DNA from: Pseudacidovorax sp. RU35E | Lineage (GTDB): Bacteria; Pseudomonadota; Gammaproteobacteria; Burkholderiales; Burkholderiaceae_C | DNA: 64,000 bases | Assembly: GCF_900156165.1 (NCBI RefSeq) | Contig: NZ_FTMY01000006.1 | Location: 1 to 64,000 of the forward strand | Direction: 5' to 3' | Part shown: positions 175 through 14,258 of the stretch, piece by piece | How positions within the stretch are numbered: the stretch's first letter is position 1 | Layout: each line of letters opens with the position of its first letter | Program-made: the position numbers and the translations under genes | The notes under the pieces: generated by a model | Databases searched by the model: none | What the model saw: only the letters and a program-made list of their open reading frames with translations | What the model was told of the DNA's origin: nothing

Positions 175-1158
175 TTAGTTGTCGAGCGTCAGCTTCTGCT
201 TCTGCACCACGTCCTTGTAGACCGCGTACTCGGCCTTGATCTGTTCGGCGAACTGCTCGGGTGTGTTGGCCACGATGATCGAGCCGGTGTCCTCGATGCG
301 CTTGCGCACCGCCGGGTCTTCCAGCGCCTTCTTGGTGCCGGCACTGATCTTGTCGACCACCTCCTTCGGCAGGCCCTTGGGGCCCAGGATGCCGTAGTAG
401 GCCATACGGTTCACCGGCTCCAGGCCCACTTCCTTGAAGGTGGGCACGTTGGGCAGCTCCTTCAGCCGCTGCGGGGCGGCCACCACGATGGGCACCAGCT
501 TGCCGGCCTTGATGAAGGGCAGCGCCGAGGGCAGGTTGTCGAAGATCATGGGCACCTGACCCGCCACCACGTCATTGAGGGCCGGACCGGCGCCGCGGTA
601 GGGAATGTGGGTGATGAAGGTGCCGGTCACGCTCTTGTACAGCTCCATCAGCAGGTGGCCGATGCCGCCCGTGCCGGAGGTGCCGTACGAATACTTGCCC
701 GGGTTCTTCTTCAGCTCGGCGATGAAGCCTGCATAGTCCTTGGCCGGAAAGCTGGGGTTCACGGCGATGACGTTGGGCGTGGCCGCGATGTTGATGATGG
801 GCGTGAAGTCCGTCAGCGGGTTGTACGGCGTCTTGGGGTTGATCGCCGGATTGGCGGCCGTGCTGGACACGGTGGCCACGCCCAGCTTGTAGCCGTCCGG
901 CGCGGAGCGCGCGGTCTCCAGCGCACCCACCGCGCCGCCGCCGCCGGCCTTGTTGGTGACCACCACCGGGTGGCCCAGGATCTTGCCCAACGGATCGGCG
1001 ATGACGCGGCCCACGATGTCGGTGGTGCCGCCGGGTGCGAAGGGCACCTGCAGCTCGATCGGCCGCTCGGGATAGCCTTGCGCGAATGCGGCGGGCGCCG
1101 CAACGAGGGCGGCGAGCACGGCGCCACCCGCCAATGCCTTCCAGGGACTGCGTTGCAT
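175..1158 (-). CDS. Tripartite tricarboxylate transporter substrate-binding protein (Bug/TctC family)
   Basis: Periplasmic solute-binding protein of 327 aa. The N-terminus is a clear Sec signal (basic MQRSPWK, a hydrophobic Ala/Val stretch, cleavage near AFAQG), followed by YPERPI and [14 protein letters not shown], the hallmark of Bug-family binding proteins. Family members capture carboxylates or other small organic acids for TctAB-type carriers. No tctA/tctB lies in view, so it is one of the orphan receptors common in Burkholderiales and the ligand cannot be told. The start at 1158 has an AAAGGA ribosome site just upstream. It follows the response regulator gene on the same strand after 149 nt, so that two-component pair may control it, which is inference. 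Confidence 0.93.
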
Positions 1159-1307
1159 GGTTGTTTCCTTTAGTCGTGATCGGGAGCGGCCTCGTTGCGG
1201 GCCGGCCGGCAGTGTGGCGCGGCGGCGACGCGGCGTCGTCCGTAGCCGCGGGCCGGCGGCCTCCGTGGCGCTACGCAGGGGTTATCCCCAATCCAACACG
1301 CGCAGTT

Positions 1308-1922
1308 CTAAAGGCCGTGCTCGCGCAGGAAGCGATACAGCCCGTGGCTGTTGGCCACGCCCAGCTTGGCGAAGACATGCGCGCGGTGGGTCTCGATGGT
1401 GCGCAGCTCCACCGGCGCGAGTTCCTGCGCGATCTCCTTGTTGGGCTTGCCTTCGGCCACGAGCCGCGCCACCTGCATCTCGCGCGGCGTGAGCTTCTGC
1501 CACAGCGCCTGGGCCGCGTGCAGCGTCTGGCGGCGCTCGGCCCCAGCCTGGGCCTTCTCCAGCGCCTTGGCGACCGCGGCCAGCAGGCGCTCGTCGTTGC
1601 AGGGCTTTTCGAGCCAGCCCAGGGCGCCGTTCTGCACCGCTTCCACCGCCATGGGAATGTCGCCGTGGCCGGAGAGGAAGAGCACCTCCAGCGCGCTGCC
1701 CCGCTCGCGCAGCGCGTCGAAGACCTGCAGCCCGCTCATGCCGCCCAGCCGCAGGTCGAGGATCACGCAGCCCGGATGCTGCAAGTCGGCCCCGGCCAGG
1801 AAGTCCTCACCGCTCTCGAAGGTGCGCACGGCATAGCCACGCGACAGCAGCAGCAGGCCCAGCGAGCGGCGCACGGCCTCGTCGTCGTCGACGACGCACA
1901 GGTTGTTGGCGGGCAGGGTCAT
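1308..1922 (-). CDS. FixJ-type response regulator with LuxR HTH domain
   Basis: DNA-binding response regulator of 204 aa. The receiver domain occupies residues 1-120, with the acidic cluster VDDDE near residue 12, phospho-acceptor D56 in VILDLRL and the conserved Lys in LEKP. A C-terminal LuxR-type helix-turn-helix follows from about residue 140 (LTPREMQVARLVAEGKPNKEIA). Its ATG overlaps the TGA of the upstream histidine kinase by four bases (1919-1922), so the two are translationally coupled and almost certainly cognate. The next gene downstream on this strand is the TctC-like binding protein, a plausible target. Confidence 0.92.
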   Translation of the reverse strand: MTLPANNLCVVDDDEAVRRSLGLLLLSRGYAVRTFESGEDFLAGADLQHPGCVILDLRLGGMSGLQVFDALRERGSALEVLFLSGHGDIPMAVEAVQNGALGWLEKPCNDERLLAAVAKALEKAQAGAERRQTLHAAQALWQKLTPREMQVARLVAEGKPNKEIAQELAPVELRTIETHRAHVFAKLGVANSHGLYRFLREHGL

Positions 1923-4198
1923 GGTGGGGCGATGGGCAGTTCGAGCGTGAAGACGGTGCCGCCGCCTTCGCGCCCGGCAAAGGTGAGGCGACCGCGGTGG
2001 GCCTCGACGATGGTGCGGCAGATGTTCAGCCCCAGGCCGAGCCCGCCTGCCCGCGTGGTGAAGAAGGGCGCGAACACCTGGTCGGCGATGGCCGGGTCGA
2101 TGCCGGTGCCCCGGTCGGCCACGCGCAGCTGGATGCCGCCTTCGCGCCGCTCGGCGTCGATCTCGAGCCGGCGTTCGGCGGGCGGCACGCCGCGCATGGC
2201 ATGCAGGCTGTTGGAGACGAGGTTGAGCAGCACCTGCTCCAGCAGCACGCGGTCGCCGCGCAGCAGGGGCAGGTCGTCGGGGATGCGCACCTCGGGCACC
2301 ACCTGGCCTTCACGCAGCTCGCCGCGCAGCAGGGCCAGCGCCTGCGCCACCAGCGTGGCGACGGCGCAGTCCTCGGCGCCGGCCGTGCGCTGGCGCACGA
2401 AGCCGCGGATGCGCCGCACGATCTCGGCGCTGCGCTGGGCCTGGGCGATGGTGTCGTCCAGGCTCTGAGCCAGCAGCGCGCCGTCGCCGCGCTGCGCGAA
2501 GGCCTTGGCCGCGCTCGCGAAGCTGCTGAGCGCCATCAGCGGCTGGTTCAGCTCATGGGCCAGCGTGGAGGCCATCTCGCCCAGACTGGCCAGGCGTTGG
2601 GCGTGCTGCAGCTGGGCCTCGTTCTGCCGCTGCAGCAGCTCGGCGCGCCGCTGCTCGGTCACGTCGACCACCGAGCTCATCCAGCCCGCGTGCCGGCCCT
2701 CGGCATCGATCAGCGGCGAGGTGTAGACCATGGTGATGACGTCGTGCCCGTCCTTGTGCCGCAGCCGCGACTCGTGACCGGACTGCGAGGGCTGGCCGCT
2801 CATCATGGCCTCGTAATGGTGCCAGTGGCGCGTCACCTCGTCGGGATGCCAGTACGGATAGGGCGGCAGCCGGCCCAGCAACTCGCCGGCCTCGAAGCCG
2901 GTCATGCGGCAGAAGGCCGGGTTGACGTAGGTGATGCGGCCTTCCACATCACGCGCGCGCATGCCCACGGGCAGTGCGTCCTCCATGGCCTTGCGGAAGG
3001 CATTCGCCTCGCCCAGGGCCTGGGTGCGCTCCTTGACGCGCAACTCCAGCTCGCGGCGCGCGTCCCGCTGCTCGGCAAAGCGCCGCTCGCGCAGGCGCCA
3101 GTACAGGCCGGCCAGCAGCAGCAGGCTCAGGCACAGCAGGGCGACCATCCAGGCGCTTTCGCGCGTGCGCAGCACCTGGTCGTGGTCGGCCATCACGGTG
3201 AGCATCCACGGCAGGTCTTCCACCGGCTCGCTCACCGCCAGGAAGTGGCGGGCCTGACCGTCGATCTGCGTCCGGACCAGCATGCCGGGTCGGTCGCCGT
3301 CCGGCGTCACCTTCCACGGCAGTTGCGGAAAGCTGGCGCGCGGGCCGTACTGCTGATCGCGCCGCACCTGAGCCAGCCCCTCGGCATCCACCGGCCGCGT
3401 GGCGTGGTAGAGCCACTGAGGCACGGAGCTGAGGAAGACGATGCCGCGCGTGTCGGTCAGCAGGATCGGATCCTTGGCCAGTCGCCAGGAGTCCTGCAGC
3501 TGGCGCAGGCTCACCTTGACCGTCACGACGCCGAGCACCTGATCGCCATCGCCGCGCACCGGTGCCGACATGAACAGCCCCGGCTCGCCGGTGGTCTGCC
3601 CCACCCCGTAGAAGCGCCCGCTGCGGCCCGCCAGCGCCTCGGTGAAGTACGGCCGGTTGGCATAGTTATGGCCGACGAAGCTGTGCGGCGCCGCCCAGTT
3701 GCTGGCGGCCAGCGTGACCCCGCGCGCGTCGATGAGGTAGAGCACATCGGAGCCGGCCAGGCGGTTGAGTTCTTCCAGGTAGCGGTTGGCGCTCTGGCCG
3801 AGTGCGGCCTGCCCAGGCGCATTCAGCAGTGCCAGCACCACGGGATGCAGGGCGGCGGTGAAGGGCAGGTGCCGGTAGCGGCCGGTGGCATCGCGCAGGC
3901 CTGAGAGCTGCACCTCCGCCGCGCGGCGGATTTCGTCGGCCTGGTTGCGGGCGGCGCGGTCGGCGGCCCATTGGCCGGCCAGGGCGACGACCAGCAGCGA
4001 GAGTCCAAGCAGCGCGGTCCAGACCGCGAAGCGCGGCCAGTGGAATCTCGCGGCGGAGATGGAAGCCCCGGGGTTGGGCGCAGCGACGGCAGGTGGCATG
4101 GGCGATAGGCCGGCCATTCTCTTCGAGCAGGCTGGGGCGTCGGAGGCCAACGAGAGGACGCAGGAATCGCGGGCTGACTCCGCCTCGTCCTGGGCCAT
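1919..4198 (-). CDS. DctB-like sensor histidine kinase with PAS domain
   Basis: Membrane sensor kinase of up to 759 aa. Order: a poorly conserved N-terminal 45 residues, TM1 (about 55-75, WTALLGLSLLVVALAG), a periplasmic double-Cache-type sensor region, TM2 (about 350-370, VALLCLSLLLLAG), a coiled linker, a PAS domain (about 405-515), a HisKA domain with phospho-accepting His in AHELNQPL, and HATPase_c with N box NLVSNSL and Gly-rich GLGLGL. DctB-class kinases sense C4-dicarboxylates or similar acids; the ligand here is unknown. The start is uncertain: Met codons at 4117 and slightly inside would remove an unconvincing leader. It lies 9 nt after a LysR gene and overlaps its response regulator. 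Confidence 0.9.
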   Translation of the reverse strand: MAQDEAESARDSCVLSLASDAPACSKRMAGLSPMPPAVAAPNPGASISAARFHWPRFAVWTALLGLSLLVVALAGQWAADRAARNQADEIRRAAEVQLSGLRDATGRYRHLPFTAALHPVVLALLNAPGQAALGQSANRYLEELNRLAGSDVLYLIDARGVTLAASNWAAPHSFVGHNYANRPYFTEALAGRSGRFYGVGQTTGEPGLFMSAPVRGDGDQVLGVVTVKVSLRQLQDSWRLAKDPILLTDTRGIVFLSSVPQWLYHATRPVDAEGLAQVRRDQQYGPRASFPQLPWKVTPDGDRPGMLVRTQIDGQARHFLAVSEPVEDLPWMLTVMADHDQVLRTRESAWMVALLCLSLLLLAGLYWRLRERRFAEQRDARRELELRVKERTQALGEANAFRKAMEDALPVGMRARDVEGRITYVNPAFCRMTGFEAGELLGRLPPYPYWHPDEVTRHWHHYEAMMSGQPSQSGHESRLRHKDGHDVITMVYTSPLIDAEGRHAGWMSSVVDVTEQRRAELLQRQNEAQLQHAQRLASLGEMASTLAHELNQPLMALSSFASAAKAFAQRGDGALLAQSLDDTIAQAQRSAEIVRRIRGFVRQRTAGAEDCAVATLVAQALALLRGELREGQVVPEVRIPDDLPLLRGDRVLLEQVLLNLVSNSLHAMRGVPPAERRLEIDAERREGGIQLRVADRGTGIDPAIADQVFAPFFTTRAGGLGLGLNICRTIVEAHRGRLTFAGREGGGTVFTLELPIAPP

Positions 4199-4207
4199 TG
4201 CTGGCCG

Positions 4208-5107
4208 TCAGATGCGCCGCGCCAGCTCTTCCGCGAAGAAGTCGGTCACCTGCCGCACGGTCGCCGAGATGAACCGGCGACTGGGCCACACCAAGGCCAA
4301 CGCGCGGCTCTCCCCGACGAACTCGTCGAGGACGGTGATGACCTCCGCATCCTCCGGGCTGTCGGTCAGCGACGCTCCGTGGAACATGCCGATGCCCAGT
4401 CCTGCGCGCACTCCGGCGAGGATGGTCTCGACCGTGTTGGAGGCGAGGTTGCCGCCCACGCGCACAGTGATCGGCCCGGCCGGGCCGCTGAAGGCCCAAT
4501 CGGTGGCGCCGTCGTAGACCAGGCAGTTGTGCTGGGTCAGCTCCTGCGGATGCCGCGGCGTGCCGTGGCGCTCGAAGTACGCGCGAGAGCCGGCGCACAC
4601 CAGCGAAGTGCTGGCCACTTTCCGCACCACCGAATCCGCGTGGTAGACGGGGCTGACGCGGATCGCCAGGTCGACGCCTTCGGCAATCAGGTCTTCGGTC
4701 CGGTCGGAGAGACGCACGTCCAGCTGGATCTTCGGGTGCAGCGTCAGCAGGCGCGGCAGCAGCGGCAGCACATGCAGCCGCCCGAAGGTGGAAGGCGCTG
4801 CGATGCGCACCGGGCCGGCGATCTCGTGGACGCTGCCGGCGAGTTCCTCGTCGGCCTGCTGCATCTCTTCGAGGATCGGCTTGCTCCGCTCGTAGTAGCG
4901 GCGCCCCGCCGGGGTGAGCGCCACGCTGCGCGTGCTGCGGTTGAGCAGCTTGACGCCCAGGCGCTGCTCGAGCGCGCTGACCGACTTGCTGGCCATCGAC
5001 TGCGAGCCGCCCATGCGGCGGGCGGCGGCGGAAAAGCCACCGGCCTCCACGACGGCGATGAAGGCACTCAGTTCCTGGAATCTATCCACGGCCCCTCTCC
5101 GGCTCAT
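4208..5107 (-). CDS. LysR-family transcriptional regulator
   Basis: LysR-type regulator of 299 aa. The N-terminal winged HTH (about residues 10-68) reads FQELSAFIAVVEAGGFSAAA and SKSVSALEQRLGVKLLNRST, followed by the two-lobed effector-binding domain (about 90-295). It is divergent from the SDR dehydrogenase at 5265, the usual arrangement for a LysR protein controlling its neighbour. A dyad beside its own start (5110-5124) could be the operator. The histidine kinase gene follows on the same strand after only 9 nt, so the LysR and two-component genes may share a transcript. Confidence 0.93.
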   Translation of the reverse strand: MSRRGAVDRFQELSAFIAVVEAGGFSAAARRMGGSQSMASKSVSALEQRLGVKLLNRSTRSVALTPAGRRYYERSKPILEEMQQADEELAGSVHEIAGPVRIAAPSTFGRLHVLPLLPRLLTLHPKIQLDVRLSDRTEDLIAEGVDLAIRVSPVYHADSVVRKVASTSLVCAGSRAYFERHGTPRHPQELTQHNCLVYDGATDWAFSGPAGPITVRVGGNLASNTVETILAGVRAGLGIGMFHGASLTDSPEDAEVITVLDEFVGESRALALVWPSRRFISATVRQVTDFFAEELARRI

Positions 5108-5109
5108 TG

Positions 5110-5124
5110 ATTCGTTCTAAGAAT
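5110..5124. promoter_or_regulatory. Possible LysR operator (ATTC-N7-GAAT dyad)
   Basis: The 157-bp gap between the divergent LysR and SDR genes contains ATTC-N7-GAAT, an interrupted palindrome that also satisfies the T-N11-A pattern typical of LysR sites. It sits within 3 bp of the LysR start codon, where an autoregulatory site is often found. No protein-binding evidence is available, and short dyads occur by chance. Confidence 0.35.
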
Positions 5125-5264
5125 AGACGATGTGCTTCATGACGGGATTATCAGCACGTAGAGCGGAAATTAAAGTCGATTCATCGATGCGCGACGGCCT
5201 CTGCAATACACAGCGTCCGCCCCGTCGGTGCCCCGCACTCCGATCGACCCTCCAAGGAATCACC

Positions 5265-6053
5265 ATGACCTCCCGCCCCGACGCCCTCTCCAACGAAGCC
5301 TTTGCCGATGCCTCCGGCCCATCCCTGAACCTGGCCGGCAAGACCGTGGTCGTCGTCGGCGGCAAGACAGGCATCGGCCTGGGCATCGCGCAGGCCGCAC
5401 GTGCCGCCGGCGCCACGGTCGTCGTGGCCAGCCGCCGCATCGCCACGCCCGACGAACGGCCCGACCTGGCCGGCTACCGCCAAGTCAGGCTCGACATGAG
5501 CGATGAATCCGCGGTGAGCGGCGCCTTCGACGGCATCGGCGCCTTCGACCACCTCGTGGTCACCGCCGCGCCGGACATCGGCAGCTGGGGCGCGTTCCAG
5601 GACGCGGACATGCGCGGCGTGCGCGCCTATGTGGAAGGCAAGTTCCTCGGCAGCTGGGCCTGTGCCCGGCACGGTGCACCGCACATCCGACCGAACGGCT
5701 CCATCACCTTCCTGACAGGTGGCATGGCCGTGCGACCCAAGATCGGCTTCACCGCGGTCACGTCGGCATTCGCCGCCGTGGAGGCCCTGTCCGCCTCGCT
5801 CGCGCTGGAGCTGGCGCCGCTGCGCGTGAACACGATCCGTCCCGGCTTCGTCGACACCGACATGTGGGGCTTCCTGCCCGAAGCACAGCGCCAGGGCTTG
5901 CGCCAAGCCGTGGCGCGGAACTTTCCCGCGCGGCGCGTGGGCCAGCCGCGGGACATCGGCCATGCGGCGCTCTTCCTCATGACCAACCCTTACGTCACCG
6001 GCACGGTGGTGGAGGTGGCGGGCGGCGAGAACCTGGTGCCGAGCGTCGGTTGA
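5265..6053 (+). CDS. SDR-family oxidoreductase lacking the usual YxxxK motif
   Basis: Classical-length SDR of 262 aa with an N-terminal Rossmann motif VVVVGGKTGIGLGIA (about residues 25-39) and the late PG motif in VNTIRPGFVDTDM. In the region where SDRs carry Tyr-x-x-x-Lys this protein reads GFTAVTSAFAAVEAL, so neither catalytic Tyr nor Lys is visible. That is known in a divergent SDR subset and makes the reaction uncertain. ATG 5265 was chosen over the longer frame from 5130 because AAGGAA precedes it and the upstream residues are not SDR-like. It is divergent from a LysR gene, which probably regulates it. Confidence 0.87.
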   Translation: MTSRPDALSNEAFADASGPSLNLAGKTVVVVGGKTGIGLGIAQAARAAGATVVVASRRIATPDERPDLAGYRQVRLDMSDESAVSGAFDGIGAFDHLVVTAAPDIGSWGAFQDADMRGVRAYVEGKFLGSWACARHGAPHIRPNGSITFLTGGMAVRPKIGFTAVTSAFAAVEALSASLALELAPLRVNTIRPGFVDTDMWGFLPEAQRQGLRQAVARNFPARRVGQPRDIGHAALFLMTNPYVTGTVVEVAGGENLVPSVG

Positions 6054-7755
6054 AAGCGCAACGGGGGCGAAGCCAAAGCCAAACTGTCTTGGCATTCCCC
6101 CCCTTCCGAAACAGACTTCCGATGGCGCACACGGGCTTCGGTGTTGTTGCCCCTACTCGTGCGCCGTCTCGCCGGTTCAGCGAGATGGATGGCTCACCAA
6201 GAGAGAAGGGGCACTCCCGGCAGGGCATCAATTGCTGACTGCCGATGTCCACTCACGGCCGGCTGCGTCTACCTACCTGTAGGACTCAGCTTAGGGACTT
6301 CCGCTACGTTGACCGGGTGGGTGTGGGCCGCTAAGTTGAGCCCATGTTCAAACCATCACAGTCTTATGCGGAATCCTGTTGATCTGGAACTGATTCGGCA
6401 GTTGGAGCCAGCTTAGTTGGCCACGGGTAGGGACCAGCTTCCACCGCCGAATTCAAGGTCGTCCTCGCACGCCGAAGCGGTCGTTTACCTGCCGGCTCTA
6501 GGAGTTGTACGGATCACGTATGCGCTGCGGAGAACAGTACTAAGAGGCGTTCTAAGCTGGTGTTGGTTCGCGAAGAGTGCCTCGGTCGAGGCTCCTCCTG
6601 CTTGAGGACAACTGCAAACTTGCGGCTTCGCCCAGTGTGAGACCGTTTTGTGGTCAACTCGACCTACTTACTACCTTGCCCGATAGGTCTTAAACGAATT
6701 CTGGCGGAAGCGGTGAGATTCATCGACGTCTACAAATCATGCACTTAGGATTTCGATACCATGGACTTCACCATGCCTACACGCCTATTTAGACTTGCGT
6801 CTCCCTTAGCGTCAAATCTTCAAAGTGACTGACCTACTTTCCATGAGACCTAGAGCCACCGGAGCAATGCGCGATGGCGGGCCCCTTACAGGTGGCGGTT
6901 ATGGTGTGCCATTAAGCGCATGAGATTTCCGACCCTGACGAGGCTTGCGTCGGGCCGAGCGCCTAGCGTTGGTCCACGGCCGCCAGAACGTGACTATCTG
7001 GACTCGCAACTACTGCCAAAGCTTCATCCTGCGGATCGAAGTCCCTGAGCTTTCGGGTGCTCTTGAGAGCTTCCGGCGGCTAAGCACCCGCGACGCCGCG
7101 ACCAAGGTAGACCGTAGGCCGGGTCGGCAGTCCCGCAGCTTGAGCTCTCGTAGTAGGCGCACAACGTTAACACTATCATTGGGGTCATCCTTGTCCGGTA
7201 CGCATTTCCCGAAAGCACGTACCACGACTATGGACCTCTTTTCTATGCCGCCATCTTTAGGTGCGGCCGCGGAAAAACACTTCAGCTGCAAGAGTTCGCG
7301 GCTCAAGCGCTTCTCAGCTTGCGATGTGGAGCGCAGTGGTGACGAAATCAAGGCTAGTCGCCCGAGGCGGAGATACATTCGCCGCTGTCAGTTAAAGCGT
7401 CCTAAGCCAGCTAAGCGACCGCATCGTCTGCTCAAGGATCTCGCGGCTAGTCTGCGACCGCTGATGAGCATGAATGGTGCGGACCGAAATGAGTGGCGAA
7501 ACTCCCGCGAAGCCGGCGGAAACCATGCTTCTGCAATCTTCCCCCGTCATATGCGACCTTGTCTCCGGCGATGTGCAAGCCCGACGATGACCTTACTTCG
7601 ACTGCATTGTGTGCCCCACTTAGAGCGAGCTCACCTCCTACGCACGAGTTAGCAACGTTCACCGACGTCCGCATTTCGGCGCGCCTCCAACCCGCGGGCT
7701 TGTCCCGGTACGCTGTAGACTGGTGCAAGGACCCACGAAGGGTCGAGGAGATGTA
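6054..7755. other. Long stretch without a convincing gene, spanning the left island boundary
   Basis: About 1.7 kb in which no frame gives a recognisable protein. Frames at 6141-6416, 6945-7652 (+), 7010-7378 and 7447-7767 (-) lack ribosome sites and family-like sequence. A plus-strand open stretch at about 7158-7345 gives a protein-like segment (GVILVRYAFPESTYHDYGPL) but has stops on both sides and no start, so it may be a gene relic. Base composition is visibly less GC-rich than the flanking core genes. The left copy of the tRNA-Ser repeat lies inside at 6701-6721. The segment most resembles decayed mobile-element DNA. Confidence 0.5.
6701..6721 (+). repeat. Left attachment-site copy (21-bp direct repeat)
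   Basis: Identical over 21 bp to 14238-14258, beginning CTGGCGGAAG and ending GAGATTC. Read on the minus strand it is the last 20 nt of tRNA-Ser, including the discriminator G and CCA, plus one base. The match breaks immediately afterwards (ATCGA here, GAACT at the tRNA), so it is a short isolated core and not a second tRNA. Confidence 0.8.
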
Positions 7756-8526
7756 GTGCCTATCCATCTAACTCCGTTCGGACAGACCGACTCGCTATGG
7801 ACCGGCAATACTTGGGAGGTGCCCGACGAAGACGCCCTCGCGAAATGGATTGGGTGGGTAGCAATTGGCCAAGCGCTTCATGTCGCTGAAATTCTTCACT
7901 CAGTAGACCCAGGCTCTGCTTTACCCACGAACGAAGCAGCGAAATCCGAGGCTGTTGACCTTTTGACTCAAAAGGGTGCCGATCCTTGGCATCGAGATGG
8001 GTGGATGTTTCAAGTTATGTCGTGGCTAGCGGCTAATGTGGATAGGCCTGGCGCACTAATTGCGCTTCCCCATCTCATGCACGCAGACAAGGGCCTAGAT
8101 GGCCTCGAAATACTGCTTGATGAATCCCAGAACGTCGTTGCAGCGATAATTTTTGAGGACAAAGCGACTGAAAATCCCCGAGACACCATCCGGGACGACG
8201 TCTGGCCAGAGCTCTTAAAATTCGAGTTAGGGCATGGAGTCAGCAGGCTGACTCAACAGGCTTCAGGGATTCTGGCGGCAGCGCAGGTCCCGAACCCGAG
8301 TGCAGCTGTTAGCAAGATCTCATGGAATACAACTAGGCGCTACCGCATTAGCATCACATCAAGTAAAAGCACGCCAAATTCGCGAAAGAGCCTATTCAAA
8401 GATTTCGAGACTACGGTGCAAGGTGGCATCGACCGGCGAAAGGCGGAACTTTTCGTGGTTAAGGACCTTAGACCGTGGATGGCGAACCTAGCCAAGAAAG
8501 CAATTGCCCAAGTAGCTGAGCTATAA
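7756..8526 (+). CDS. Putative anti-phage nuclease, PD-(D/E)XK fold, HamA/DUF1837-like
   Basis: Protein of 256 aa with a plausible PD-(D/E)XK active site: D115 in GLDGLE, then E134-x-K136 in IFEDKAT, with a hydrophobic beta-strand before each. Following residues NPRDTIRDDVWPEL look like a conserved helix. GTG 7756 is preferred to ATG 7723 because GAGGAG lies 5 nt upstream. It is followed after 18 nt by a large helicase gene, the same order and architecture as Hachiman (HamA nuclease, HamB helicase; AbpAB in E. coli). In such systems the helicase is thought to license the nuclease to attack DNA during infection. I infer the family from motif and context; sequence similarity to DUF1837 itself is not obvious by eye. 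The gene is AT-richer than the host. Confidence 0.65.
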   Translation: MPIHLTPFGQTDSLWTGNTWEVPDEDALAKWIGWVAIGQALHVAEILHSVDPGSALPTNEAAKSEAVDLLTQKGADPWHRDGWMFQVMSWLAANVDRPGALIALPHLMHADKGLDGLEILLDESQNVVAAIIFEDKATENPRDTIRDDVWPELLKFELGHGVSRLTQQASGILAAAQVPNPSAAVSKISWNTTRRYRISITSSKSTPNSRKSLFKDFETTVQGGIDRRKAELFVVKDLRPWMANLAKKAIAQVAEL

Positions 8527-8544
8527 GTTAAGGAGTGCCTCGCG

Positions 8545-11500
8545 ATGTTTGACCCTTCAACAGAGGAGCTGATTCGGCACGCCCCAACCCTCGATGGGCT
8601 AGACAATAATCAACTCTCTAAAGAATTCACTCGAATATACACGACCATCATAGCGGCACGTATGCGGCTGCGTGATATACCCTCGCAAGCTGATCAAATA
8701 AGCGAGTCGCGAGTCGAGACCCTTGAAATAGTCAATAAAGAGATAAAGTTTTTAAGAGAGCTTGCAAGCACCCAAGAGGCAATTATTTCTGTCAGCCCTT
8801 CACGCGATGACCGCCGCTCTGCGGCATTTGTCGCCGGGACTGCGCACTATGTTCTCCTGCAGGCGGAACGCATCGGTGGCGCCAAGGTTACCTCACGCCT
8901 AGACGTCGACTACATATCGCCTGAAATTTCTGCGACAGTTTTGTTCATGATTGCTGGCGCTAGTGCAGACGCCGCGGAAATGGCCAGAGAGATTGAAGAA
9001 GACCATTCTCAGTGGAATCCTTATCGGTCGCCGCTATTAGCCGCTATCCGGCAACTTGCTACCGGAGATCTAGCGAACATCCAGCCACAATCAGAATTCA
9101 CAAGTGGCGCCGATGATCGGCGTCCAAGCATAGAGCGCGCAGTTGATGCGCTGTACCACCTGATTTACAACGGTCTTGCGTCGTTGGCTGCCGAGATGCT
9201 GGGAAATGAGGACGCAAGCAGCGGTGGGAAATTCGCGAGAGCGGAAGCGCTATGCAGCCGAGCGGTCAGCAGTCCGTTTCAACATCAACCAATCGTCCGC
9301 ATCTTCGCTGGGCCGCGACATCTAGCAGTGTTGCTTAAGATTCTGGCTGGTGACTTCCCAGAAACAAGTGTCGCTAAGCTTTCTCCACCAGATGGCAGCG
9401 ATCCTGCGCGATGGAGCCGCGGCGTTCGCCACATCTCACGCCGTCGCCCATACCTCTGGCCGAACCACCTCGACGCCATCCGCAGTGGATATTTGGACCT
9501 CGGGAAATCCGCTGCAATAAGCTTTCCAACCGGCGCTGGGAAGTCAACCCTGTCCGAACTTAAAATACTCGCGACGCTCAGCAAACACTTAGATGTTGTC
9601 TTTCTGGCTCCGACGCTTTCGCTCGTGGACCAAACGGCTCGCGTTTTAGACGCGGCATTCCCTGAGGCGGCCGTCGAGCGCGAGTACGCAAGCGACGACC
9701 CATTCGGCTTCGAATCCGTCCGCCTTCCGCCGATCACCGTCATGACACCCGAAAGATGCCTCGCTCTAATGGGGTTTGAACCGAGACTGTTTGAGAACGT
9801 TGGCCTCATCGTCTTTGACGAGTGCCACCTACTTCATGCTATCGACACTGAGCGGGGAAAGCGGGCCGTGGATTCTATGCTCTGCGTGCTCAATGCGGTC
9901 GATCTGGCACCAAAGGCAGACATGCTCATGCTTTCAGCCATGATGAGCAACGCAACTCAAATAGCAGGATGGCTGGAAAGCATCATGAAACGGCCCTGTC
10001 TCGCACTGTCAATGAGTTGGAAACCTACTCGACAAGTGCGAGGCTGCCTTGTGTATCCACGTTCAGAGGTCGACGATATGAAAGCCCTCGCGAAATCACT
10101 AAAAAAGGCCGCTTCTACCAACGCACCTTCACAAAAAGCAAGACGGCAAATGCTGGCGCGACCGCAAGGTTTTTTTGGCCTTAAGCAAACATGGGACACC
10201 ACGAACCGAGTTGATTATGCGCTGCTTCCATTGCTCGAAAAGCCGGTGCAGTTGGGCCTAAGTCCGTACTGGAAGCTAACGCCAAATGCGAATAATGTTG
10301 CGGCGGCCATTAGCTCTGCGGCAGTCGATGGGAGTTCGTCTCGGGTGCTAAAGACCCTTATTTTCTGCCAAACGACAGTTAACGCAAACAGCACCGCCGA
10401 ATACGCCAGGGCGCGGCTTGGAGCAAATATAATTCAATTAACAGCCGAGGAATCTCAATTCTTAGACATTGCGTTACAAGAGATTGGAAGTGCAGACTGC
10501 CTGTATATTGAAATAACGTCAAAGAAGGAAGTGACTTCGTCGGCGCTACCACATCACGCACGGCTCCTACCGGCTGAGAGGCACCTACATGAGTCGCTGT
10601 ATCGTCGTAAAGACGGCATCCATATTTTAGCTGCTACTTCAACCCTTGCACAGGGAATGAATTTGCCCAGTCAGATTGTTCTAATTGCCGGGGACAGTCG
10701 CTTTGACGCTGCAAACAACCAACTTGAACGCCTACAGGCGCACGAACTTCTAAATGCAGCAGGTAGAGCAGGCAGAGCGGGAGAGAGTTCATATGGATTC
10801 GTTCTTGTCATTCCCAGTAAAGTTGTCTTCTTTGACGATTCTATCGGCAGCATCCATCAACACTGGACTAACCTTAAAGAAATTTTTTCTCAATCTGACC
10901 AATGCCTTGCGATTGAAGATCCCCTTGCGCCGATTCTTGACTCTATACACTTGCATGGAGAGAGCCATGCGGCTGCTGAATATTTGCTTCGACGTCTTCC
11001 CGTTGGAGAGTCGGATGAGGTTACAGAAATGAAGTCCCGCGCCATGTTGAATCGGACATTCAATGCATACCTAAAATTGATGTCTGGAGACAAGGAATGG
11101 ATTGGGTCGCGTATAGCCGCTGCAATTTCGGCTAAGAAGAATCTTGCCGATCCAGATGAAGATTCCGACTGGGCAGATGTGCTGGCGGCGAAGTTCGGCA
11201 TTCATCCTTCCACACTGCGTTCGTTGGAAGAGCACCTTAAATCTCCGCCAAGTGACACTTCCGTAAACGGGTGGATCCGATGGCTGTTCGACTGGCTTAA
11301 GACCGAGCCGAAGGCCTTTATTGAGATGACTCGCCAAGAAGGTCTTGAAACGCTGTTCGGGAATAGATTTTCCGTGCTATCAGCGCCGGATGAACGAGGG
11401 GCATTTGCCATTCCGAGGCTTTTACCACTTCTCGAAGCATGGATGGCGGGGAAGCCGTATACGGAAATGGAGAAGGTGTTTGACCCCTCTCTGAAAAAGC

Positions 11501-11835
11501 TGAATAAGTGCGAGAACAGTCGGGATTTCGTGCTCCGTGTTCTCCCGGATTTAGCTTATGTAGCCTCACTTCCCGAATTAGTCCGCCGTTCCAGCGAAGC
11601 AATTGGCAAATCATGGATAACCCTCGAACGCCTGAGCGGATGTGTTCGCGACGGCCTAGACTCACTGGAGAAGCTCGCCCTGTATCAAATCATCGGCAGG
11701 TCAGGAGCGCGGATCGCAGCACACGAAACTTGGGATGTCTGCGAGTTTTGGACTGACGCTGCGAAGCCTGATGAGGACTGGAAGACGTTGCGAAACCGAG
11801 TCAAGGAGGGCTGGACGACGTGGCGCACCCCCTAA
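8545..11835 (+). CDS. Large Ski2-like SF2 DEAD/DEAH helicase, HamB-like defence component
   Basis: Protein of 1096 aa with a full set of SF2 motifs: motif I FPTGAGKS (about 327), Ia LAPTLSLVDQ, Ib MTPERCLAL, II FDECH (about 425), III LSAMMSN, IV KTLIFCQTT, V AATSTLAQGMNLP (about 693) and VI NAAGRAGRAG (about 737). The AAGRAGRAG form of motif VI and the TLAQGMNLP motif V are typical of Ski2-like helicases, the class of HamB. About 320 residues precede the motor and about 340 follow it; neither part is recognised. AAGGAG precedes the ATG by 9 nt. It is the second gene of a tight pair with the nuclease, so both probably act as one system in the cytoplasm. Confidence 0.75.
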   Translation: MFDPSTEELIRHAPTLDGLDNNQLSKEFTRIYTTIIAARMRLRDIPSQADQISESRVETLEIVNKEIKFLRELASTQEAIISVSPSRDDRRSAAFVAGTAHYVLLQAERIGGAKVTSRLDVDYISPEISATVLFMIAGASADAAEMAREIEEDHSQWNPYRSPLLAAIRQLATGDLANIQPQSEFTSGADDRRPSIERAVDALYHLIYNGLASLAAEMLGNEDASSGGKFARAEALCSRAVSSPFQHQPIVRIFAGPRHLAVLLKILAGDFPETSVAKLSPPDGSDPARWSRGVRHISRRRPYLWPNHLDAIRSGYLDLGKSAAISFPTGAGKSTLSELKILATLSKHLDVVFLAPTLSLVDQTARVLDAAFPEAAVEREYASDDPFGFESVRLPPITVMTPERCLALMGFEPRLFENVGLIVFDECHLLHAIDTERGKRAVDSMLCVLNAVDLAPKADMLMLSAMMSNATQIAGWLESIMKRPCLALSMSWKPTRQVRGCLVYPRSEVDDMKALAKSLKKAASTNAPSQKARRQMLARPQGFFGLKQTWDTTNRVDYALLPLLEKPVQLGLSPYWKLTPNANNVAAAISSAAVDGSSSRVLKTLIFCQTTVNANSTAEYARARLGANIIQLTAEESQFLDIALQEIGSADCLYIEITSKKEVTSSALPHHARLLPAERHLHESLYRRKDGIHILAATSTLAQGMNLPSQIVLIAGDSRFDAANNQLERLQAHELLNAAGRAGRAGESSYGFVLVIPSKVVFFDDSIGSIHQHWTNLKEIFSQSDQCLAIEDPLAPILDSIHLHGESHAAAEYLLRRLPVGESDEVTEMKSRAMLNRTFNAYLKLMSGDKEWIGSRIAAAISAKKNLADPDEDSDWADVLAAKFGIHPSTLRSLEEHLKSPPSDTSVNGWIRWLFDWLKTEPKAFIEMTRQEGLETLFGNRFSVLSAPDERGAFAIPRLLPLLEAWMAGKPYTEMEKVFDPSLKKLNKCENSRDFVLRVLPDLAYVASLPELVRRSSEAIGKSWITLERLSGCVRDGLDSLEKLALYQIIGRSGARIAAHETWDVCEFWTDAAKPDEDWKTLRNRVKEGWTTWRTP

Positions 11836-12340: not shown

Positions 12341-12700
12341 CGTTCGCCTCGCGGTGCAGCGCGCCCCCGCCTCCAGCTGTCAACGCGCGCCTGAGCGCTC
12401 CCGCAGAGGTTGCCTGGCACTACGGCCGGCGTCGACAGAATTAGTTGCGCCATAGCCTCCTGTTGCGGTCGCCGCTCTGCAGATGTGGCATTCGCGAGCC
12501 GATCGCGCTGGTCTGCTAGGTTGCGAAGATCGGCAGCTCCGTCGTTGCAGGCTGAAGCGTCCGCCCGTGCGGTGTTCCACTCGCCCGTCGTGCGCGCGAC
12601 GGCACCCCGCGTGTGCAGCCAGGCCCAGCCGAGCCCGGCATTGCCGTCCGGCCACGCTCAGCACCAGCGCAACGGCAAGCGCCTGCATGGCCGCGGTCAT
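12325..12700 (-). pseudogene. Rz-like inner-membrane spanin, apparent single-base frameshift
   Basis: ATG 12700 overlaps the endolysin stop by four bases and encodes an N-terminal membrane segment, MQALAVALVLSVAG. The continuation typical of Rz (NAGLGWAWLHTRGAV, then a helical region TGEWNTARADASACN and ADQRDRLANATSAERR) is in the next register and runs to TAA at 12325-12327. Dropping one base at 12646 joins the two parts as VAGGNAGLGWAW. The 376-nt span is not a multiple of three. Intact Rz is a coiled-coil i-spanin that pairs with Rz1. Either this is a decayed prophage gene or the base is a sequencing error. Confidence 0.65.
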
Positions 12701-13311
12701 CGAAACGCCGCCTCGCCGGCCTCGATGGCCTTGCGCACTGGCCAGCCCAGGAACACGAGCCGCGTCGCATGCCGGCGCCGCTGCAGCCCCTTGAACACCT
12801 GTCCTCCCGCCCTCACCCATTTCGGCAGCTCATCCGCTGCGCCCGCGTAGTCGCCGGCATTGAGCTTGCGCAGAAAGGTGCTCGGCCGGCCATCGGCCAA
12901 GTAGAGGATGCCGTCCCGCCCTCGCCCGCCTGGCCCGGTGTTGTAGACCGTCGAAACGATGGCGTCCCACTGGCACTGCGACACCGGCACATGCACGGCC
13001 TCGCGCGCGGGAGGCTCGAAGTCGCGCGCGAGGCGCCGCGCATAGCGCACGTCTGCCTCAGACTGCGTGATGACCCGGCCGACGCGCACGTCCAGTGTGT
13101 CACTCCATCCGATGGTCCAAGGTGCGCCGCTCAGCTTGGCGAACGGCGTCGGGATCGCGGGCATGTTGTACGGGTCGAAGCCCGCGCGGCGCAGCGCGGC
13201 AAAGAGCGGCGAAGCCGGGTCCGGGTAGGCCAGCAGCTTGCACGCCTCGTAATGGTGATTCAGCGCGTGGCAGGCCGGGCCCGCGCGCATCACTTCGACG
13301 GCACTATCCAT
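12697..13311 (-). CDS. Phage endolysin, T4-type lysozyme (GH24)
   Basis: Muramidase-like protein of 204 aa, matching phage GH24 endolysins. The catalytic Glu is probably E22 in HHYEACKLLAYPDP, followed by the conserved Asp/Thr region WTIGWSDT, then ITQSEADVRYARRLARDFE and QCQWDAIVSTVYNTGPG. There is no signal peptide or signal-anchor segment, so release to the periplasm should depend on a holin. It overlaps the upstream holin-like gene by 8 nt and the downstream Rz-like gene by 4 nt, which places it in a compact lysis cassette. The frame is intact. Confidence 0.88.
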   Translation of the reverse strand: MDSAVEVMRAGPACHALNHHYEACKLLAYPDPASPLFAALRRAGFDPYNMPAIPTPFAKLSGAPWTIGWSDTLDVRVGRVITQSEADVRYARRLARDFEPPAREAVHVPVSQCQWDAIVSTVYNTGPGGRGRDGILYLADGRPSTFLRKLNAGDYAGAADELPKWVRAGGQVFKGLQRRRHATRLVFLGWPVRKAIEAGEAAFR

Positions 13312-14237: not shown

Positions 14238-14258
14238 CTGGCGGAAGCGGTGAGATTC
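14238..14258 (+). repeat. Right attachment-site copy inside tRNA-Ser
   Basis: Second copy of the 21-bp direct repeat at 6701-6721. Twenty of its bases are the 3' end of the tRNA-Ser gene on the minus strand (T-arm side to CCA); the first base lies just beyond it. The tRNA remains complete, as expected when an integrating element brings its own copy of the tRNA end. Confidence 0.8.

Follow-up and report, generated by a model that had tools for sequence, protein, structure and literature searches.

A probable Hachiman-like nuclease–helicase gene pair in Pseudacidovorax sp. RU35E with a nuclease outside the DUF1837 models

Can a nuclease–helicase gene pair be Hachiman-like when its nuclease lies outside the DUF1837 and HamA models? 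The question is raised by two adjacent genes, here called A and B, in Pseudacidovorax sp. RU35E, of which we analysed 64,000 nucleotides (nt; contig NZ_FTMY01000006.1, positions 1 to 64,000 of the forward strand; hereafter, the window). A sequence-only reading of this DNA had proposed a Hachiman-like pair, possibly a divergent one, and our results agree with both parts of the proposal: no DUF1837 or HamA model reaches its cut-off for A, and B groups with HamB. We regard A and B as probably forming a two-component Hachiman-like abortive-infection system, a reading supported by the predicted HamA and HamB folds, the intact motifs, the coupling of the genes, and a context of defence genes and mobile elements; from the analogy with Hachiman, we infer anti-phage activity for the pair.

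Gene A (7756 to 8526, + strand) begins with GTG at 7756 and runs for 256 codons to a TAA stop at 8524 to 8526; another in-frame GTG lies upstream at 7723, the start at 7756 being the position found in most aligned relatives. Gene B (8545 to 11835, + strand) begins with ATG at 8545 and comprises 1096 codons, its stop ending at 11835, and the 18-nt spacer between the genes contains AAGGAG (8530 to 8535, + strand; read directly), the likely ribosome-binding site of B. Both frames and the spacer are as first described, and so are the residues singled out in A, namely D115 (8098 to 8100, + strand), the predicted catalytic aspartate, and E134-x-K136 (8155 to 8163, + strand), the predicted catalytic E-x-K, each of the three being invariant across all 36 sequences of one alignment and all 54 of another. 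The nuclease fold suspected for this protein was recovered in its predicted structure, which is of the PD-(D/E)XK type and has HamA itself as its best PDB match; on this prediction, A would adopt the HamA fold and retain the complete D-E-x-K active site. R194 and R197, which might correspond to the (R/K)XX(R/K) interface motif of HamA, are likewise invariant (54/54).

A protein search with A returned 322 relatives at E ≤ 1e-3, and an alignment search 461 at E ≤ 10. Among the 120 relatives listed for each search, none carries a Pfam domain and every descriptive name is 'hypothetical protein', in contrast to the long-type canonical HamA, for which the 120 listed of 1546 relatives (E ≤ 1) bear PF08878. 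No match for A was found in the INPHARED phages at 1e-5 or in BFVD at E ≤ 0.001, and one IMG/VR contig carries A, apparently the same locus as the near relative L003. The literature, covered by titles and abstract openings with few subscription papers and no bioRxiv, yielded no description of this nuclease family.

That homologues of the two genes should be found as a pair was borne out. Across 58 loci obtained by genome scan (L003 to L060; not all independent, because some, e.g. L026 to L028, are near-copies), the start of B lies no more than 30 nt from the end of A in 54, and in 51 B is additionally at least 1000 amino acids (aa) long. An exact 8-nt overlap of A and B, mostly ATGTTTGA or ATGTATGA, is present in 45 of the 58 and fixes the C-terminus of A as well as a common N-terminus of B (MFD or MYD); the window and its near relatives L003 and L004 have spacers of 17–18 nt in place of the overlap. 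The genes are not adjacent in L045 and L049, where B lies nearby in pieces, in L054, which ends inside A, and in L060, which has no B match, and they are adjacent with a short B in L006 (at a contig end), L033 (800 aa) and L059 (83 aa). In a phylum sample of 398 genomes, A (E ≤ 0.001) occurs in four, its own genome included, and the same four have B (E ≤ 1e-40), PF08878 being found in 15; among 60 relatives, again counting its own genome, only that genome carries A. Taken together, the 322 relatives and the adjacency in 54 of 58 loci place the gene pair beyond chance.

Relatives of A also lie on 11 plasmid records, one of which (NZ_CP049039.1) is also genome locus L022. Seven of the 11 were inspected, and in five of these the annotation shows a DEAD/DEAH helicase immediately downstream; plasmid L100 has no annotated downstream helicase, and record L141 carries no annotation. 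On L100, the Shewanella plasmid pSA70-3, typed mobilizable, a few kb separate the relative of A from annotated resistance genes.

The product of B was correctly recognized from the sequence as a superfamily 2 (SF2) helicase with a Ski2-like motif VI. It contains Walker A/motif I PTGAGKS (residues 328–334; 9526 to 9546, + strand), Walker B/motif II DECH (residues 425–428; 9817 to 9828, + strand), SAMM (464–467), TST (698–700) and the Ski2-like motif VI region NAAGRAGRAG (residues 737–746; 10753 to 10782, + strand). In front of the motor, the model helices and the HamB alignments delimit an N-terminal helical bundle (residues 4–300; 8554 to 9444, + strand), which the model suggests to be the counterpart of the HamA-docking NAH domain of HamB; B is predicted to combine the HamB fold, intact Ski2-type motor motifs and this bundle. 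The B model aligns with HamB chains from residue 10–12 over 900–906 residues, up to chain residue 1066–1068, and Hel308 alignments begin at residue 274–283, leaving the bundle unmatched. The profile search suggested for both proteins had a divided outcome, as A stayed under the DUF1837 and HamA cut-offs and B matched PADLOC HamB (best 1.9e-33) and, more weakly, the PDC-M23B helicase (3.8e-25); Pfam DEAD matched at 3.6e-18. Among sequences of solved structures, B matches SLH1 (1.2e-26) and ASCC3 (2.8e-21), then HamB 8vx9 (1.6e-18), as well as Brr2- and Hel308-type helicases, and the curated Hel308 model gives it 77.7 bits against a cut-off of 1200. A helicase tree of 19 B-family members (of 55 long ones) and 13 HamBs from 15 PF08878 loci, which spans Pseudomonadota, one Planctomycetota and one Acidobacteriota metagenome-assembled genome, sets the B family on one side of a branch (support 100/99) and joins it with the four long HamBs L090–L092 and L094 (100/100), apart from the remaining nine HamBs. 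Because the tree is unrooted and the program warned of long branches meeting, nesting of the B family inside HamB is suggested by it, not shown.

For A, the sequence evidence for kinship with HamA is weak. In the libraries scanned (Pfam, NCBIfam, PADLOC 2023 and PHROG), no PADLOC, Pfam or NCBIfam model matches A at E ≤ 1 and no PHROG at 1e-3, and a scan of 36 relatives at E ≤ 1 did not bring up PF08878. Among seven divergent relatives, which match no PADLOC model, PF08878 appears once, in L053 (14.8 bits, E 0.027; cut-off 25 bits), a match that we take as a hint. When 17 genomes with A loci were scanned, PF08878 matched in five at E ≤ 10: above the cut-off in those of L014 and L051, elsewhere than at the A locus, and below it in three, where two matches are, by their coordinates, the A genes of L048 and L053 (15.4 and 14.1 bits; profile positions 81–136 and 81–137) and the third lies elsewhere. 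Several other family matches were taken as chance: by PADLOC, Cas5_IIIh (one member, 0.00047) and MTase_II (one, 0.023), and by Pfam, Cdc6_lid (seven members, best 0.0034) with six singletons among the 36 relatives, and WDGH (0.16) and DUF7120 (0.066) among the seven divergent ones. Neither phmmer with A nor hmmsearch with its profile found HamA among PDB sequences, the sole matches being Tankyrase-1 (0.036) and polyribonucleotide nucleotidyltransferase (0.021). The A profile reached at best E 0.35 against 15 canonical HamAs (hmmsearch), and a deep long-type HamA profile E 0.48 against the A family; a deep A profile compared with the same 15 HamAs gave an hhalign probability of 1.7%. The claim that the EDKATENPRDTIR block of A is unlike DUF1837 did not stand in full, since a look-alike, GESKVYANPTDAIRD, occurs in the canonical HamA of L080, in register in the best-scoring, non-significant alignment; there, D115, E134/K136 and NPRDTIRD of A fall on the corresponding HamA columns (GADG, GESK and NPTDAIRD in L080). 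Local alignments place E-x-K on E-x-K with the 'all', g80, g84 and Hx profiles and lose the register with longB, short and Hd.

A number of results weigh against the Hachiman-like reading. A and those of its relatives that were scanned all stay below the cut-offs of the HamA and DUF1837 models, and the hhalign probability for A versus the 15 canonical HamAs is at most 2.3%, which is not significant, falling to 0.2% and 0.9% between deep A and deep HamA profiles. In a shuffling control, 18 of 200 block-shuffled A profiles scored at least as high as the real one (23.4; maximum 30.8; reversed profile 13.8), for which reason we claim no sequence homology from the profile comparison. Alignment of A with the long-type HamAs, the ones paired with the HamBs closest to B in the tree, is out of register, and the chance-like Cdc6_lid match outscores the sub-threshold PF08878 match. 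The published HamA motif is D-GEXK (PMC12799240), and its glycine is missing from the A family, where F133 precedes E-x-K in A itself and position 133 is F in 45, S in six, C in three and G in none of the 54 aligned sequences. All structural results, moreover, come from predicted models of single chains. The B model has no strand after residue 764, so that the C-terminal barrel of ECOR31 HamB finds no counterpart in it; its Z score with Hel308 equals that with one of the HamB chains, and the alignments of six Brr2-type rows likewise begin near the N-terminus, at B residue 1–45, and cover 570–608 residues.

Set beside ECOR31-type Hachiman (HamA DUF1837 nuclease and HamB helicase, PDB 8vx9), the pair has the same gene order, similarly a nuclease adjoined by a Ski2-like SF2 helicase, chains of 256/1096 versus 259/1174 residues, the D-E-x-K triad (E138/K140 in HamA) and Ski2-type motifs by sequence and, in the models, the HamA fold and the HamB fold with its N-terminal bundle. 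It differs in that A lies outside PF08878 and the PADLOC HamA models and has F for G before E-x-K, and in the OB-like C-terminal barrel, known here from ECOR31. In AbpAB, as described in PMC12278908, the nuclease combines a Cap4-like N-terminal domain with an inactive HamA-like domain, next to the helicase AbpB; unlike it, A is a single domain of 256 aa, HamA-like over its length and with the triad intact. Type II Hachiman (HamABC, with the DUF3223 protein HamC; PMC8565338) shares the HamA/HamB core, but A has no match to the HamA2 model, and no constant third gene accompanies A-B, although no search was aimed at DUF3223. As for the PADLOC candidate PDC-M23, B matches its helicase, and A is without any PADLOC match at E ≤ 1; Hel308 and Ski2 helicases differ in that the N-terminal bundle of B is unmatched in the Hel308 alignments.

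Defence genes are found among the neighbours of the A-B loci, as had been anticipated, and we compared them with open reading frames (ORFs) of the window's own genome. Up to three nearest ORFs of at least 150 aa per side were collected (278 ORFs from 55 loci, L028 excluded), and of these 278, the 191 that ranked first or second on their side were scanned with PADLOC (E ≤ 1e-10) as sets of 101 and 90. The first set matched 169 families, the 25 listed including pAgo (8.5e-211), OloB (1.8e-203), a type III methyltransferase (7.3e-198) and type I specificity (1.9e-97); the second matched 210, the 25 listed including a type I methyltransferase (2.4e-227), QatC (4.2e-199), a type III restriction enzyme (7.8e-168), an Effector/Endonuclease model (7.5e-148), a SAVED effector (5.2e-131) and PtuA (6.7e-125). 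Since this output counts families, not loci, we give no fraction of loci. The control, 68 ORFs of one genome and thus a smaller set, matched 38 families, the best of the 25 listed at 6.4e-52, and several of these look like generic kinase or helicase matches. No constant third gene emerged among the 278 neighbours, the commonest shared one, near seven of 55 loci, being a tyrosine recombinase as judged from one member. HamA1 and HamA2 matches among the neighbours were not counted as Hachiman, as canonical HamA profiles found none of the 278. The sole neighbour with a strong single-sequence match, L051:14594-15760, was not counted either: it matches L089_hamA (1.9e-41), a 532-aa fusion, probably through the N-terminal domain, not the HamA domain. 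A nuclease fold is predicted for A, and the two genes mostly stay together, with defence genes among their neighbours, which supports the Hachiman-like interpretation.

How the pair might work can be sketched from ECOR31 HamAB, where HamA binds the N-terminal bundle of HamB (PMC12278908, on which the whole sketch draws). By transfer, A would be kept inactive on the N-terminal bundle of B, and B would survey DNA for free 3′ single-stranded ends or damage arising from phage replication; on meeting such DNA, B would hydrolyse ATP, shift the bundle and activate A, which may then degrade both host and phage DNA, so that infection stops. Judging by the models, the pair appears to be built like Hachiman and most likely works like it. 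A definition that insists on DUF1837 leaves the pair outside Hachiman; on our reading it would form a branch of its own within Hachiman, with a nuclease that has diverged beyond the reach of the DUF1837 profile and is without a match in the four libraries.

Other readings were weighed. It is unlikely, though worth considering, that the A family is an effector lineage in its own right, attached to a HamB-type sensor and with a trigger or substrate of its own (e.g. another damaged-DNA structure, or RNA); the docking scaffold would then serve no fewer than two helicase-gated nuclease systems, Hachiman and the present one, which the defence and family libraries tested lack. Also unlikely is an independent effector swap, in which an ancestral HamB took up an unrelated PD-(D/E)XK nuclease and the likeness of A to HamA reflects a shared small-nuclease fold; such folds are common, acquisition of new effectors by Hachiman has been described (PMC12799240), and the lack of both a significant A–HamA sequence signal and a register with the HamAs of the nearest HamBs would fit.

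The remaining alternatives would take the pair out of anti-phage abortive infection or out of use. That A and B serve restriction- or repair-like ends (DNA processing for housekeeping, mobile elements or plasmid competition) seems improbable to us: the other relatives of B are Hel308/Ski2 repair and RNA helicases and A relatives occur on plasmids, yet A is rare and patchy, defence genes lie nearby and B has the HamA-docking bundle. We give very little credence to an inactive or passenger remnant, for which the low-GC interval and an endolysin as its sole recognised phage gene could speak, because neither frame is broken, all the catalytic motifs sought are present, and identity to near relatives is still 78–82% in A and 83% in B. 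If the Hachiman-like reading is true, such immunity is wider than DUF1837-based detection shows, and software built on HamA profiles may be counting too few of these systems; as a divergent pair, A-B could also help to establish which features of the HamA–HamB interface and active site are important.

The setting of the pair in the window fits a mobile, prophage-like insertion at a tRNA gene, given the repeats, the tRNA end and the endolysin. The guanine–cytosine content of A-B is 52.5% versus 66.9% for the window. The 3′ end of a tRNA-Ser gene (14238 to 14258, + strand) forms the right boundary, and a 21-nt copy of it (6701 to 6721, + strand) is the probable left attachment-site repeat; these direct repeats, probably the integration site, flank a 7.5-kb interval that holds the A-B pair and a phage-type endolysin gene (12697 to 13311, − strand; PHROG endolysin 7.3e-35). 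No integrase was recognised among three further ORFs of the interval that were scanned. Of six same-genus stretches, five show homology from 14238 or 14239 onwards and the sixth from 14250. On the left, the matches of window positions 4200–6701 in 20 relatives are all weak or short, and the insertion may therefore extend beyond 6.7–14.2 kb. In one relative, G407, window positions 177–3990 are kept, 188 bp from its tRNA-Ser. Positions 3991–6701, with a LysR-type regulator and a FabG-like PHROG match, have no counterpart beside the tRNA of G407, which suggests layered insertions or a deletion.

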